Part shown: positions 19,423 through 39,004 of the stretch, one piece after another | Position numbering within the stretch: the stretch's first letter is position 1 | Layout: the number at the start of each line of letters is the position of its first letter | Assembly (NCBI GenBank): GCA_024224295.1 | Contig: JAAENN010000022.1 | Location: 1-64,000 of the forward strand | DNA: 64,000 bases | Origin: Shimia sp. | Lineage (GTDB): Bacteria; Pseudomonadota; Alphaproteobacteria; Rhodobacterales; Rhodobacteraceae | Reading direction: 5' to 3' | The notes under the pieces: model-generated | What the model saw: the letters and a program-made list of their open reading frames with translations, nothing else | Told to the model about the DNA's origin: nothing | The model's database searches: none | Program-made: the position numbers and the translations under genes

Positions 19423-19453
19423 TCGGCGTGCCGTTGAAGGGTCACGTGACCCT

Positions 19454-20440
19454 TCAACACGGTGCATCGGGTACACCAGAGAGATCGGCGAATACGTCGA
19501 GGGCTTGGGCGCCGGATGGGCAGGGCGGGGCCTTGGAAAGAGTGTTAAATGACCGCTGAAGAAACCAAGACAGTTCCAGCTGAAAAAGCAATCGGTCAAA
19601 GGCGTCATTTGGTTGGTCGCGGTGAGCACCCTTGAGCAGTGCGTTTGCCATAGGACGGAGATCGCCATAGCGCGGTGTGTATTGTCCGTTCAGTAGGCGC
19701 ATTCCCTTGCGTCTTTGGGTCTCGAGATTGCCGCACCCAGGGGTCGCCAGAGCCAAAAAGTCATCCTGAGACATTCGGGGGTACAGGGTTCGATGTATGG
19801 CGCGCAGAGCGGTGCCGAGCGGGTGCGAGGTGCGCGCATCAAGACTCGTGGACACCAAGCTGCGCCAAAAGGACAGCATCTCCGGCGCGATTTCTCCCAG
19901 CGCGTATTGCAGGGTGGCGAGAGCGCTAAGGGCACGCAAAGGAAACAGGCTTTTGGCGTCTATTTGGCAAGGCGTTGTCGCCAGCCAACTGAGCGACAAC
20001 GTCCAAACGCGACTTGTTCCTGGGGCCCAGTGGGAAAGCAGCGCTAGCGCTTGCTCGTATTCTTCTGCATCCCAAAGCTGGAGTGCTTGATATGAGTGAC
20101 GTGTGGAGGCAACAACGAGCTTGGTGGTGAATGGGGTGATGTCAGCGAGGCGGCGCCCCTGCAAATCGGTGCGTTCAAAGAAGTCTTTCAAGGGTGTGTC
20201 AAGTCCTGCCGCAGCGATGTCTGTCAGCGCGGTACGCATTGCCATGTCGTTAAATTGATGCGTGTCGGCGACCGAGGAAATCCATGAGTTTAGCGTGTCC
20301 GATCCGAGGCGTGCCCCGGCCAATATGCGGGCCGTTTGTTTGTGGGCCGTCGGAGCAGCCTCCTTTTTCCCCACAAGCATGCTTGGCAACGAGGTGCCGG
20401 AGAGCTCAAAAATAGTGTTGATATCGGGTGGGAAATACAT
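19454..20440 (-). CDS. Unknown protein, alpha-helical (328 aa)
   Basis: A long frame with a coding-like, mostly helical product (QALQLWDAEEYEQALALLSHW, ALSALATLQYALGEIAPEML). The repeated helical pairs could be tetratricopeptide-like, but I do not recognise a family. No signal peptide. The ATG at 20440 (MYFPPDINTIFELSG) is taken as start; a TTG at 20527 is also possible and neither has a strong Shine-Dalgarno. No overlapping plus-strand gene competes with it. Confidence 0.55.
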   Translation of the reverse strand: MYFPPDINTIFELSGTSLPSMLVGKKEAAPTAHKQTARILAGARLGSDTLNSWISSVADTHQFNDMAMRTALTDIAAAGLDTPLKDFFERTDLQGRRLADITPFTTKLVVASTRHSYQALQLWDAEEYEQALALLSHWAPGTSRVWTLSLSWLATTPCQIDAKSLFPLRALSALATLQYALGEIAPEMLSFWRSLVSTSLDARTSHPLGTALRAIHRTLYPRMSQDDFLALATPGCGNLETQRRKGMRLLNGQYTPRYGDLRPMANALLKGAHRDQPNDAFDRLLFQLELSWFLQRSFNTLSKAPPCPSGAQALDVFADLSGVPDAPC

Positions 20441-35072: not shown

Positions 35073-36755
35073 GTGAACAGATTGTGGCAAGGCAATTGGC
35101 GCACAAAAGCGCGTATTGTGTCTGGTTTGATCCTGTTTGCGTATGTGCTGTTTCATTTTTTTAATGTTGGTATGGGGCTGTTTTCGCTTGAGGCGATGCA
35201 GCGGTCGCAGGATGTGCTGGCGGCTGTCACCAGCAATCCGTTGGGCCAGGTGGTGCTGTATGGCGCGTTGCTGACCCATATGGGGCTGGCGCTCTACCGA
35301 CTGGCGCGGAAGCGGACCTTGCGGATGCCGGTGTCGGAAGCGGGGCAGGTGCTGTTGGGGCTGTTGATCCCGTTGTTGCTGATGACGCATATCGTGCACA
35401 CGCGGGTGGCGGAGAACCGGTTTGAGGTGGAGCCGGAGATGGGCTTCATTGCTGGTCTGATCTGGAATTCGCCCAATGGCTGGCAGCAGGCAGCGCTGTT
35501 GCTGGTCGTTTGGGGTCATGCCTGTATTGGTCTGCACATGTGGCTGCGGGTGTTGCCTGCTTGGCGACGGGTGCTGCCGGGGATGCTGTCACTGGCGACG
35601 CTTGTGCCTGCTTTTGCGTTGGCGGGTTTTCTGGTGCAGGGGCGTTTGCAGAATATGCGCCTATTTGATCCGGTGGGCGGTGCTGCTTTGCGGGAGAGTT
35701 ATGGCTTTCCATCTGCGGAGACCTTTGCGCGGCTGGCCGAAATCAATAGCAGTTTGCTGGGCCTATTTGTTGGGCTGGTAGCGTTGACCATGGCGGTGCA
35801 TTTTGGACGGCGTTTTATTGGCGCGCGGCGGGCCGTGCGTATTCGGTATGTCGATGGGCCGGAGATTTCGGGGCAGCCGGGTATGACACTTTTGGAGATG
35901 TCGCGGGTGGCGGGTGTGCCGCACATGGCGCTGTGCGGCGGGCGCGGGCGTTGCACCACCTGTCGGGTGATTGTCGAGGAGGGTGCGGAGCTGTTGCATC
36001 CGCCGGAGAAGGCGGAAGCGGACAGTTTGGCGGCGGTGAATGCGCCGCCAAATGCACGACTGGCTTGTCAATTACGACCTAGGGAGCCAGCGACGGTGCT
36101 ACGGGTGTTCCGCAGTGACGGGCAGCAGGCGCGGGCGCATCAGAGCCTGGGGCAAGAGCGGCGTTTGGCAATCTTGTTTCTGGATATGCGCAGCTTTACG
36201 GCGCGCACGACAGGGCAATTGCCGTATGATGTTGTGTTTTTGCTGAACCGGTTTTTCGATGCAATTGTGCCGTCGATCACTGGCGTGGGTGGCACGGTGG
36301 ACAAGTATCTGGGGGACGGGTTGCTTGCGGTATTTGAACTCGACAGTGAGGAGGCCTCCGCCAAAGCGGCGATTGAGGCGGCTGCGGGAATCAGTTCGGC
36401 GTTGCAGGTGTTTAACCAGACACTGAAGGCAGAGAATGCGCAGCCGGTGGCGATTGGCATCGGAGTGCATTTGGGGGAGTTGGTTCTGGGCGAGATTGGC
36501 GCGGTGAACCTCGCGCCACGTACGATCATCGGCGATACGGTGAATGCCGCGAGCCGGTTGGAAGGGCAGACCAAGGCGCTGGGCGTGGAAGTCTTAGTAT
36601 CGGAGGCTGCGTTGACGGCGGCGGGGCATGATCCCGACGCGCATCGCCTTGAGGTGTTGGACTTACGGGGCGTGGCGCAGCCGGTGCGGGCCTTGGCGCT
36701 GAAGCGGGCGGCGGCTTTGCCTGCGGTGCTGTCTCAGCAGGCCGAGCCTGCTTGA
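35073..36755 (+). CDS. Membrane adenylate cyclase with [2Fe-2S] ferredoxin domain
   Basis: A 560-aa protein of three modules. Residues 1-250 contain about six membrane helices with conserved-looking His (H28, H69, H106, H109, H149, H155) resembling cytochrome-b-type or succinate-dehydrogenase anchor subunits. Residues 255-345 are a plant-type ferredoxin domain with Cys288, Cys294, Cys297 and Cys332 (CGGRGRCTTC and LACQL). Residues 365-545 are a class III cyclase: metal Asp371 and Asp415, adenine-selecting Lys411 and Asp488, transition-state Asn491 and Arg495. All catalytic residues are present, so it should make cAMP under redox control. Start is GTG 35073 with AAGGA upstream. Confidence 0.88.
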   Translation: MNRLWQGNWRTKARIVSGLILFAYVLFHFFNVGMGLFSLEAMQRSQDVLAAVTSNPLGQVVLYGALLTHMGLALYRLARKRTLRMPVSEAGQVLLGLLIPLLLMTHIVHTRVAENRFEVEPEMGFIAGLIWNSPNGWQQAALLLVVWGHACIGLHMWLRVLPAWRRVLPGMLSLATLVPAFALAGFLVQGRLQNMRLFDPVGGAALRESYGFPSAETFARLAEINSSLLGLFVGLVALTMAVHFGRRFIGARRAVRIRYVDGPEISGQPGMTLLEMSRVAGVPHMALCGGRGRCTTCRVIVEEGAELLHPPEKAEADSLAAVNAPPNARLACQLRPREPATVLRVFRSDGQQARAHQSLGQERRLAILFLDMRSFTARTTGQLPYDVVFLLNRFFDAIVPSITGVGGTVDKYLGDGLLAVFELDSEEASAKAAIEAAAGISSALQVFNQTLKAENAQPVAIGIGVHLGELVLGEIGAVNLAPRTIIGDTVNAASRLEGQTKALGVEVLVSEAALTAAGHDPDAHRLEVLDLRGVAQPVRALALKRAAALPAVLSQQAEPA

Positions 36756-36818
36756 GTTGATGCCGCGTTGCAGCATTGCAACGGCAGCATGTTTGCTATG
36801 CAAAGCTCAATTAAGGCT

Positions 36819-36862
36819 TTGAGATTTTGTCAAACCACCCTATGTGTTCACGCGTGAACACA
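36819..36862 (+). promoter_or_regulatory. Candidate promoter with 20-bp palindromic operator for the HTH-Sat-CysC gene
   Basis: TTGAGA at 36819-36824 and TATGTG at 36841-36846 are separated by 16 bp and resemble a sigma-70 promoter. The perfect palindrome TGTGTTCACGCGTGAACACA (36843-36862) overlaps the -10 and likely start of transcription, a position suited to repression. It lies 16 bp before the ATG of a gene whose own N-terminus is a DNA-binding domain. Confidence 0.65.
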
Positions 36863-36878
36863 CTTTGAGTCGTTTGTA

Positions 36879-38954
36879 ATGTCGTTTCAGACCGCCAAAC
36901 CTACATCAGATGAGGAAGACGTGCTCTTCCGCCTTCTGCGCCAGCTTGATCAGGCGCCGGACGCATCACAGCGCGCCACAGCGGCGTCGGTGGGGATATC
37001 TTTGGGGCGTCTGAATGCACAACTGCGCGCTGCGGCAGAAGCCGGGCTGATTACCATTAGTGATCGCGCGGGCCCGGACAAGCGACAGAGGTTTGCCTAT
37101 TCGCTCACCGCGCGTGGTGCAGCGGAGAAAGTGCGGCTCACAGATCAATTCCTCGCCCGCAAACTCGCAGAGTACAATGCGCTTCATGCGGAACTGACAG
37201 GCTCGGCAAGCGGCCTGGTCCCTATCAAACACAGGACACATCCAATGCAAAACAACCTTGCTCCTATTCCTGAGCTTTATGTTTCTTATGAGAGCGCTCA
37301 GAAGCTGAAAGTGGAAGCGGCTGATCTGGTCAGCTGGGATCTGACGCCGCGTCAGATCTGCGACCTGGAACTGTTGATGAACGGTGGCTTCAATCCTCTG
37401 AAAGGCTTTTTGACCGAAGAAGATTACACCGGTGTGGTTGAGAACATGCGTTTGGCAGACGGCTCTCTGTGGCCAATGCCCATCAATCTGGATGTTTCTG
37501 AGGAGTTCGCTGCTGGCCTGAAAGACGGTCAAGACATTGCACTGCGCGATCAAGAGGGCGTGATCCTTGCGACCATGACCGTGACCGACAATTTTGTGCC
37601 CAACAAAGCGCGCGAAGCGGAAAAGGTGTTCGGTGCAGATGACGACGCGCACCCAGCCGTGAACTACCTGCACAACCAAGCTGGCAACGTGTATCTCGGT
37701 GGTCCGGTTACCGGCATTCAACAGCCCGTGCACTATGACTTCCGCGCTCGCCGCGACACACCAAACGAGCTGCGCGCCTATTTCCGCAAGATGGGCTGGC
37801 GCAAAGTGGTTGCGTTCCAAACCCGTAACCCGCTGCACCGTGCACACCAGGAACTGACCTTCCGCGCCGCAAAAGAAGCGCAGGCCAACCTGCTGATCCA
37901 TCCGGTTGTCGGCATGACAAAGCCGGGCGACGTGGACCACTTCACTCGCGTGCGCTGCTATGAGGCGGTTCTGGACAAATACCCACAGTCGACCACATCC
38001 ATGTCTTTGCTGAACCTGGCGATGCGTATGGCAGGTCCACGCGAGGCGGTTTGGCATGGCTTAATCCGCGCCAACCACGGCTGCACCCACTTCATCGTTG
38101 GTCGTGATCACGCCGGTCCCGGCAAAAACTCCGCTGGCGAAGACTTCTACGGGCCGTATGACGCACAAGATCTGTTCCGCGCCCATGAGGATGAAATCGG
38201 CATCGAAATGGTCGACTTCAAACACATGGTGTGGGTGCAGGAGCGCGCACAATATGAGCCAATGGATGAGATCAAGGACAAAGACGACGTCACCATCCTG
38301 AACATCTCTGGCACTGAGTTGCGTCGTCGTTTGGCCGAAGGACTGGAAATCCCAGAGTGGTTCTCTTTCCCTGAGGTGGTGAAAGAGCTGCGCAAGACCC
38401 GCCCACCACGGGCGCAGCAGGGCTTCACCGTGTTCTTCACTGGCTTTTCCGGCTCCGGTAAGTCCACCATCGCCAACGCCTTGATGGTGAAGTTGATGGA
38501 AATGGGTGGCCGCCCTGTGACGCTTCTAGACGGTGACATTGTGCGGAAGAACCTGTCCTCTGAACTGGGCTTCTCCAAAGAACACCGCGATCTGAACATC
38601 CGCCGGATTGGCTATGTGGCATCCGAGATCACCAAAAACGGTGGTATCGCAATCTGTGCGCCAATTGCGCCATATGCCACCACCCGCCGGGCTGTGCGTG
38701 AAGACGTTGAGGGCTTTGGCGCCTTTGTTGAGGTGCACGTTGCGACCTCGATTGAGGAATGCGAACGCCGCGACCGCAAAGGCCTCTACAAGCTGGCTCG
38801 CGAAGGTAAGATCAAAGAGTTCACCGGTATTTCGGACCCATACGACGTGCCTGCTAACCCTGAGTTGCGTGTTGAAACCGAAGGTACAGATGTCGACCAC
38901 TGCGCCCATCAGGTGATCCTGAAGCTGGAGAGCCTTGGTTTGATCAAAGGCTGA
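36879..38954 (+). CDS. sat/cysC: Winged-helix (MarR-like) domain fused to ATP sulfurylase and APS kinase
   Basis: One 691-aa ORF without internal stop. Residues 12-110 match the EPS-associated MarR-type winged helix (QRATAASVGISLGRLNAQLRAAAEAGLI, then TARGAAEKVRLTDQFLARKLAEY). Residues 123-510 are ATP sulfurylase with QTRNPLHRAHQE (314-324) and GRDHAGPG (408-415). Residues 515-691 are APS kinase with P-loop GFSGSGKST (522-530) and LLDGDIVRKNLS. The enzyme makes APS and PAPS from sulfate. Met123 (37245) is the usual Sat-CysC start and has AGGA 8 nt upstream, so a shorter 569-aa product may also be made. The start at 36879 has only a weak Shine-Dalgarno. Confidence 0.9.
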   Translation: MSFQTAKPTSDEEDVLFRLLRQLDQAPDASQRATAASVGISLGRLNAQLRAAAEAGLITISDRAGPDKRQRFAYSLTARGAAEKVRLTDQFLARKLAEYNALHAELTGSASGLVPIKHRTHPMQNNLAPIPELYVSYESAQKLKVEAADLVSWDLTPRQICDLELLMNGGFNPLKGFLTEEDYTGVVENMRLADGSLWPMPINLDVSEEFAAGLKDGQDIALRDQEGVILATMTVTDNFVPNKAREAEKVFGADDDAHPAVNYLHNQAGNVYLGGPVTGIQQPVHYDFRARRDTPNELRAYFRKMGWRKVVAFQTRNPLHRAHQELTFRAAKEAQANLLIHPVVGMTKPGDVDHFTRVRCYEAVLDKYPQSTTSMSLLNLAMRMAGPREAVWHGLIRANHGCTHFIVGRDHAGPGKNSAGEDFYGPYDAQDLFRAHEDEIGIEMVDFKHMVWVQERAQYEPMDEIKDKDDVTILNISGTELRRRLAEGLEIPEWFSFPEVVKELRKTRPPRAQQGFTVFFTGFSGSGKSTIANALMVKLMEMGGRPVTLLDGDIVRKNLSSELGFSKEHRDLNIRRIGYVASEITKNGGIAICAPIAPYATTRRAVREDVEGFGAFVEVHVATSIEECERRDRKGLYKLAREGKIKEFTGISDPYDVPANPELRVETEGTDVDHCAHQVILKLESLGLIKG

Positions 38955-38974: not shown

Positions 38975-39004
38975 AAAGGCGCGGGATTTCCCGCGCCTTT
39001 TTTT
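38975..39004. terminator. Intrinsic terminator after sat/cysC
   Basis: Perfect stem GGCGCGGG / CCCGCGCC with an ATTT loop followed by seven T. AAA on the 5' side makes it usable from the fasciclin side as well. Confidence 0.9.

Follow-up and report, generated by a model that had tools for sequence, protein, structure and literature searches.

Enzymes that regulate their own genes form a known class. Passages of PMC8249747 name PutA, BirA and NadR of E. coli as trigger enzymes, in which a metabolic enzyme bears a DNA-binding domain, and state that PutA binds only in the putA-putP spacer, a dedicated site at its own promoter. PutA and BirA are likewise described as moonlighting repressors in part of PMC6978683. 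For the ATP sulfurylase of Cryptococcus, an excerpt of PMC10359356 reports that an N-terminal element, a leucine zipper, joins in the transcriptional control of sulfur genes; this protein is eukaryotic, however, and acts by binding the transcription factor Cys3. Two N-terminal forms from a single gene are described in sections of PMC11005335 for clpA and other bacterial genes with internal in-frame starts, and in a section of PMC4283515 for an Arabidopsis ATP sulfurylase with alternative starts, but in these sections start choice does not toggle an autoregulatory DNA-binding domain.

Here we describe the sat-cysC gene in a 64,000-nucleotide stretch of Shimia sp. (assembly GCA_024224295.1, contig JAAENN010000022.1, positions 1 to 64,000; hereafter the window). 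Comparison shows that its predicted product joins a MarR_EPS-type winged helix in frame to a bifunctional ATP sulfurylase/adenosine 5'-phosphosulfate (APS) kinase, Sat-CysC. With a probability of roughly three in four, we regard sat-cysC as the gene of a self-repressing trigger enzyme with two products, a long form carrying the winged helix and a plain enzyme. An earlier sequence-only reading had proposed that a regulator is joined to the enzyme under its control, and knew of no described system of this design; the second claim was too strong, because PutA, BirA and NadR are already known as self-regulating enzymes. As in these proteins, sequence and structural model place an intact enzyme and a DNA-binding domain in one polypeptide, and comparison places a conserved operator at the gene's own promoter. 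Our case would work like PutA, and what sets it apart is the enzyme, the DNA-binding family and the conserved second start. In contrast to PutA, BirA and NadR, the enzyme of the window activates sulfate and carries a MarR_EPS domain, its gene has a conserved internal start for a domain-free enzyme, and many close relatives lack the domain. The DNA-binding domain of PutA is a ribbon-helix-helix.

If the proposal is true, it adds a twist to trigger enzymes, as a conserved choice of start would decide whether an enzyme molecule is also a repressor. It also offers a concrete candidate controller of the first step of sulfate assimilation in the roseobacter group, which is abundant in the sea, and suggests an operator for the MarR_EPS family in the order Rhodobacterales. 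Among the top-ranked matches in the openly licensed literature, judged from their listings, we found no description of a MarR or helix-turn-helix fusion to ATP sulfurylase and no paper on the control of sulfate assimilation in roseobacters; nor did we meet an operator described for the MarR_EPS family in that literature.

The fused protein and its distribution

Profile searches of the 691-aa protein found, in this order, the Pfam domains HTH_24 (residues 17-59, 7.2e-07), PUA_2 (130-281), ATP-sulfurylase (292-506) and APS_kinase (514-665). The enzyme part is a full-length member of the bifunctional sulfate adenylyltransferase/adenylylsulfate kinase family NF004040 in NCBIfam (residues 121-690, model positions 4-571 of 572, 1039.7 bits against a cut-off of 669). 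Across 29 sequences, QTRNPLHRAH and most of GFSGSGKST are invariant; we take these to be the catalytic motifs of the predicted ATP sulfurylase and APS kinase, respectively. The best-matching solved enzymes were 1i2d, 1m8p and 2gks, presumably the ATP sulfurylase of P. chrysogenum (the first two) and the bifunctional enzyme of A. aeolicus. These structures and the Sat-CysC families PRK05537 and NF004040 have the same enzyme architecture, but they match without the winged helix. In the fungal proteins 1i2d and 1m8p, moreover, the kinase-like domain has an altered P-loop, GYMNSGKD, whereas that of the window is intact. The fungal kinase-like domain serves inhibition by 3'-phosphoadenosine 5'-phosphosulfate (PAPS).

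The N-terminal part matched the NCBIfam family MarR_EPS (TIGR04176) over residues 12-106, scoring 84.3 bits against a cut-off of 88 when the protein was scanned with hmmscan and 88.2 bits in a search of the genome; the other fused relatives listed scored 71-99 bits. Free-standing MarR_EPS regulators have a homologous winged helix, with 34-47% identity to that of the window in 12 aligned proteins. They differ in being single-domain proteins (frames of 111-180 aa in the order), whereas here the domain is joined to a 569-aa enzyme; in addition, the five free-standing loci that were read adjoin polysaccharide-like genes, as judged by reading alone. An AlphaFold2 model of the N-terminal domain as a monomer (mean predicted local distance difference test score, pLDDT, of 85) has helices at residues 10-25, 31-38 and 42-54, strands at 58-62 and 72-76 and a long helix at 78-111, with no helix before residue 10. 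Foldseek searches with this model returned MarR proteins as the top matches (best E 1.6e-04) and also Sso10a-2 (TM-scores 0.58/0.74), and model and search agree on the winged helix fold of the canonical MarR family. The long C-terminal helix would suit dimer formation. A full-length AlphaFold2 model was dropped as too poor for use (mean pLDDT 55.8). The coordinates of the features are given in Table 1.

Table 1. Features of the sat-cysC locus (window coordinates)
Feature	Position	Strand	Remarks
Conserved CTTTGM element (CTTTGC), -35-like	36817..36822	+	28 bases upstream of the operator's 16-mer; presumed promoter role
Possible -10 element TATGTG	36841..36846	+	overlaps the operator's left edge; presumed role
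Putative operator, perfect 20-bp palindrome TGTGTTCACGCGTGAACACA	36843..36862	.	core 36845-36860, TGTTCA-N4-TGAACA
Weak, conserved ribosome-binding element TTTGAG of the long form	36864..36869	+	
Long-form open reading frame, winged helix + ATP sulfurylase + APS kinase	36879..38954	+	691 aa, ATG start
MarR_EPS-like winged helix, residues 12-106	36912..37196	+	profile match, AlphaFold2, Foldseek
Linker, residues 107-122	37197..37244	+	
Internal Shine-Dalgarno sequence AGGA (AGG = Arg119)	37233..37236	+	8 bases before codon 123
Short-form open reading frame, plain Sat-CysC, from internal start codon 123	37245..38954	+	569 aa (predicted product)
PUA-like domain of ATP sulfurylase	37266..37721	+	Pfam
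ATP sulfurylase catalytic domain with QTRNPLHRAH	37752..38396	+	Pfam
APS kinase domain, intact P-loop GFSGSGKST	38418..38873	+	Pfam

The sequence-only reading had placed a MarR-like winged helix and a full ATP sulfurylase/APS kinase in one open reading frame (ORF), and both the profile searches and related genomes bear this out. All 25 genomes of the genus Shimia, including the one under study, carry the fusion as a single open frame with no stop between domain and enzyme. A scan of genome contigs with the N-terminal 124 aa found 117 relatives, and in each of the best 80, which were kept, the fusion is in frame (one of them ends at the contig end). The fusion is widespread, and the titles of the fused loci include Shimia, Leisingera, Phaeobacter, Aliiroseovarius, Roseovarius, Pelagimonas, Tropicimonas, Nioella and others. 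As this set was found with the N-terminal domain, it is uninformative on how common the fusion is. In a sample of 296 Rhodobacteraceae genomes, 284 gave a match; among the 150 matches listed, 65 begin at residue 12 or before and are fused, and 85 begin at residues 100-127 and represent the enzyme alone. At least 65 of the 296 genomes are therefore fused. In the genus of one genome considered further below (G358), 3 of 39 matching genomes are fused.

The frame upstream of residue 123 is conserved protein sequence, and fused homologues start before that residue. Purifying selection acts on the winged helix, where the median ratio of nonsynonymous to synonymous substitution rates (dN/dS) was 0.114 (266 of 300 sampled pairs gave a value), compared with 0.04-0.08 for the enzyme domains. 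Median dS in the winged helix was about 1.4, and synonymous sites are near saturation. A chance ORF or a mis-set start was ruled out by the 25 genomes, the 80 in-frame loci and this dN/dS value. Recent loss of a stop between adjacent genes was rejected as well; tblastn with the winged helix gave no match in 40 unfused sat loci, of which 38 were searched with about 2.5-3 kb of upstream sequence and two (L029 and L030) with 1.5 kb. One unfused locus, L246, had seemed to hold a decaying fusion, with a match from residue 84 across a stop, but by eye its upstream translation contains no winged helix.

A conserved palindrome upstream of sat-cysC

The operator was compared in 87 distinct fused and 40 unfused sat loci, the main comparison set. 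In the fused loci, the region from 520 to 340 bases ahead of codon 123 was searched for TGTTCA-N4-TGAACA; the site that fitted best had no mismatch in 38 cases, one in 47 and two in 2, while shuffled sequences are expected to give none at zero or one mismatch and 0.45 per 87 at two. GTTCA and TGAAC show no substitution in any of the 87, and because the commonest mismatch is C for the first T, the consensus can be written YGTTCA-N4-TGAACR. A second fused sample of 61 further loci contributed 48 new ones, one of which lacked upstream sequence; the remaining 47 all have the site within one mismatch, some with TGTTCT as the left half. In the two samples together, the site is present within two mismatches at every distinct fused locus for which upstream sequence exists (134 of 134). 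Of the 40 unfused loci, 39 reached three mismatches at best and one reached two, and a second unfused sample (27 loci, one a repeat, L272 being L148) held none within two. Among all 66 distinct unfused loci, accordingly, not one lies within a single mismatch and one has two. The divergent fusion L129 has two tandem operators, TGTTCAAAACTGAACA and CGTTCAAAAGTGAACA, whose centres lie 462 and 437 bases ahead of its codon 123.

The palindrome of the window ends 16 bases before the first ATG. When the 87 fused loci were aligned on the operator, the flanking elements were also conserved, namely CTTT of CTTTGM (86-95% per base), ATG within the TATGTG hexamer (86-92%) and TTTGAG (76-92%). A sigma-70 consensus scan found no promoter in the sat upstream region, and no riboswitch was matched in Rfam over 36600-37400. 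Because the operator covers the presumed -10 region, repression would be the expected effect of binding. We propose, with strong support from comparison, that the winged helix of the long protein binds YGTTCA-N4-TGAACR at its own promoter as a dimer.

Further evidence on what the palindrome belongs to comes from free-standing MarR_EPS genes. Of 17 such genes in the order, 12 are preceded by GTTCA-N4-TGAAC within one mismatch (6 perfectly), compared with 0.12 per 17 in shuffles; its distance ahead of the domain is 99-140 bases in 11 of these 12 and 323 bases in one. Free-standing regulators and fused domain thus have a common operator core in the order, which suggests that this core belongs to the MarR_EPS family there. 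Some free-standing genes outside the order have a similar repeat with a five-base spacer, which was left out of the count. The earlier idea that the regulator is fused to the very enzyme it controls is well supported by these comparisons, as the operator accompanies the fusion, is missing from unfused genes and recurs in its core at most free-standing relatives in the order. DNA binding by the winged helix is a prediction, and the palindrome could in principle be the site of another transcription factor, with the winged helix serving protein contact or oligomer assembly. We find this barely credible, given that the core site stands upstream of those 12 free-standing genes and is absent, within one mismatch, from the 66 loci in which sat lacks the domain.

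The genome of the window contains a single perfect operator match, the one at sat. Allowing one mismatch to the degenerate pattern gave 31 sites, sat and 30 others, versus 9 for a reversed control pattern. Five of the 30 were inspected; three lie within gene-like open frames and two are intergenic. The fusion might act as an activator, or also regulate other genes, instead of being mainly an autorepressor. Some MarR proteins do activate, the 99-140-base distance at 11 of 12 free-standing genes would fit activation too, and in the seven closest loci of the genus a site with one mismatch directly precedes a DMT/EamA-type transporter gene. Against such a role, the sat site has a repressor position, overlapping the presumed -10 element and ending just ahead of the first ATG, the perfect site is unique in the genome, three of the five other sites inspected fall within genes, and the transporter site is absent from 17 same-genus loci. 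Taken together, we judge a mainly activating or wider role unlikely and keep to autorepression.

The transporter-gene site itself was observed in L160 (2619-2634, TGTTCACCTGTGAACC), just upstream of the gene, which was named by eye, and is a candidate lineage-specific second target; of 24 same-genus loci, the 7 closest keep it with at most one mismatch to the core, and the other 17 do not.

The internal start at codon 123

The sequence-only reading had taken residue 123 as the position at which Sat-CysC enzymes normally begin. Unfused homologues indeed begin at about its equivalent; in the fused genes, however, it is not just an old start that has been overrun, because the start is still conserved. 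In 86 of the 87 fused loci AGGA occurs within the 20-24 bases before the start (L090 has AGGG), as opposed to 1 of the 40 unfused loci, 18 of which have GAGAG or CGAGA; in the fused genes it is placed eight bases ahead of codon 123 with hardly an exception. Codon 119 is AGG in 86 of 87 fused loci, although AGG makes up only 4 of 3420 arginine codons in the enzyme part (0.1%) and 22 of 994 in the winged helix. Among 42 columns with at least 95% arginine, residue 119 alone has AGG as the top codon and a single codon throughout (85 of 85 arginine rows). In L129 the AGGA spans two codons (GAG GAC), indicating that the nucleotides are kept and not the arginine. Codon 123 is ATG in 81 fused loci, GTG in 5 and TTG in 1. 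Of 34 codon changes at 13 other methionine columns, 3 led to GTG or TTG, whereas at codon 123 in the same rows 5 of 5 did. The 48 new loci agree, with AGG-A at equal distance from the start in all 48 and ATG (45), GTG (2) or TTG (1) at codon 123, L310 being read in a register shifted by one codon. In both samples combined, AGG stands at codon 119 in 134 of 135 loci and codon 123 is always ATG, GTG or TTG. A conserved start codon and Shine-Dalgarno sequence are hence present within the frame, and as the start is still conserved, one would expect the gene to give two forms, of 691 and 569 aa.

The predicted duplex energy with 16S rRNA had a median of -4.0 kcal/mol at the internal start, -2.2 kcal/mol at the first start and -4.85 kcal/mol in the 40 unfused sat genes. 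As evidence for the internal start this measure was set aside as not discriminating, and our case for it is built on conservation. The long form might be the one that matters, with residue 123 and the AGG codon as relics of the ancestral unfused start and a DNA-binding head on every subunit. A relic start would be expected at first, given where unfused homologues begin, and the duplex energy is unremarkable. Yet AGG has stayed invariant in the arginine rows at codon 119 while synonymous sites are near saturation and the codon is very rare in the enzyme part, and where Met123 is lost it is replaced by GTG or TTG alone. Furthermore, because AGGA precedes the start in only 1 of 40 unfused genes, it is not simply inherited from the unfused form. 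We thus consider the long-form-only explanation quite improbable.

The opposite case, in which the short form alone reaches sizeable amounts and the winged-helix frame is mainly a translated leader or a decaying remnant, is in line with the weaker predicted pairing of the first start and with the apparently frequent losses of the domain (the enzyme tree requires 17 changes, of which at least 4 are forced). It is hard to reconcile with a dN/dS of 0.114 and conserved helix-turn-helix residues, with the co-occurrence of operator and domain, and with the uninterrupted frame in the 25 same-genus genomes and 80 loci, and its probability appears very small. We therefore retain two products. In our proposal, strongly supported by comparison, ribosomes would also start at residue 123 behind AGGA and produce the 569-aa enzyme from the same mRNA; predicted pairing is stronger here than at the first start, so most of the protein made is probably plain enzyme. 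The fusion would go unseen in an annotation that shortened the ORF to begin at residue 123. A proteome study of Roseobacter litoralis lists a Sat-CysC at 64.39 kDa (PMC4103551); that mass may be a calculated one and the strain may be unfused, and we do not count it as support.

A self-repressing enzyme as the proposed function, and its history

Several points weigh against the self-repressing enzyme with two products. DNA binding and both protein products are inferred from comparison, and the signal is a guess. By score, the MarR_EPS membership of the fused winged helix is borderline, and the domain is dispensable, being absent from the 85 enzyme-alone matches among the 150 listed. Outside the order, the N4 site is not enriched at free-standing MarR_EPS genes (1 of 17 within one mismatch, 0.2 expected), and the 30 other near-matches in the genome mean that targets besides sat may exist. 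Finally, pairing at the internal Shine-Dalgarno sequence is ordinary, as 27% of in-gene ATG positions are as good, and the short form may be transcribed from an internal promoter.

How such a system could be set is a more tentative matter. Long and short subunits would presumably share one enzyme oligomer; in mixed oligomers, start choice and the amount of enzyme would determine how many DNA-binding heads are present and thereby the degree of repression. As a guess, PAPS or APS occupying the enzyme could switch DNA binding and so tie expression to the status of sulfate activation. The CysH protein of the genome has the cysteine patterns CC..RK..PL and GCAPCT, which we take to be those of an iron-sulfur APS reductase, although its TIGR02055 score falls below the cut-off (193.4 against 235.3 bits). 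If this CysH uses APS, PAPS would lie off the cysteine path, and as an overflow product it could report surplus and be a natural signal. Fungal ATP sulfurylases, to which the nearest solved structures belong, are inhibited by PAPS. The enzyme would then act as a self-titrating sulfate sensor, in which start choice sets the ratio of long to short subunits in the oligomer and PAPS or APS toggles paired winged helices on the operator, so that the enzyme measures and limits its own supply; the roseobacter group would have lost this module, and perhaps split or rebuilt it, on several occasions. We regard this full scheme as possible, with the odds rather against it.

On a quick enzyme tree of 69 fused and 40 unfused proteins, the fusion label requires 17 changes, at least 4 of which are forced by well-supported branches. 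In a tree of the winged helices, those of the fused proteins cluster together, separate from the free-standing regulators (support 80/91; recovered in 78% of 200 bootstrap trees). L129, with a very long branch, an unsure place in the winged-helix tree and a different, longer linker, is possibly an independent fusion. The neighbourhood is common to fused and unfused genes, with sat downstream of lrp and trxB; the sequence fetched included trxB in 54 of 57 fused loci (57 of the 87 were used) and 32 of 40 unfused loci, the flanks of the latter being shorter. The simplest reading is that the fusion is old and that domain and operator were cleanly lost as a unit many times, while regains or transfer of the fusion may also have occurred.

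A split form was seen in G358, where on the minus strand of L163 (1-1920) a free-standing MarR_EPS gene lies about 260 bp ahead of a second, unfused sat-cysC copy; the operator CCGTTCAACTGTGAACGG is located 99 bases upstream of the domain of this MarR_EPS gene. In L155 (2967-5604), a second cysH-like gene, which has the CC and GCAPCT cysteines, and a UDP-sugar dehydrogenase-like gene come after a free-standing MarR_EPS gene, a further link between the MarR_EPS family and sulfate activation, apparently within a polysaccharide cluster.

Directly around sat in the window, the upstream gene (35073-36755) seems, from a reading of its sequence, to combine membrane helices with a region resembling 2Fe-2S ferredoxins and a domain resembling class III nucleotide cyclases. 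A terminator-like hairpin of 11 pairs, called on the minus strand, is situated at 38975-39000 between sat and a convergent fasciclin-like gene (named by eye). Perfect palindromes of at least 20 bp occur twice in the window, one being the sat operator; the other, TGAAGGGTCACGTGACCCTTCA at 19435-19456, measures 22 bp and is the sole perfect one of that length.

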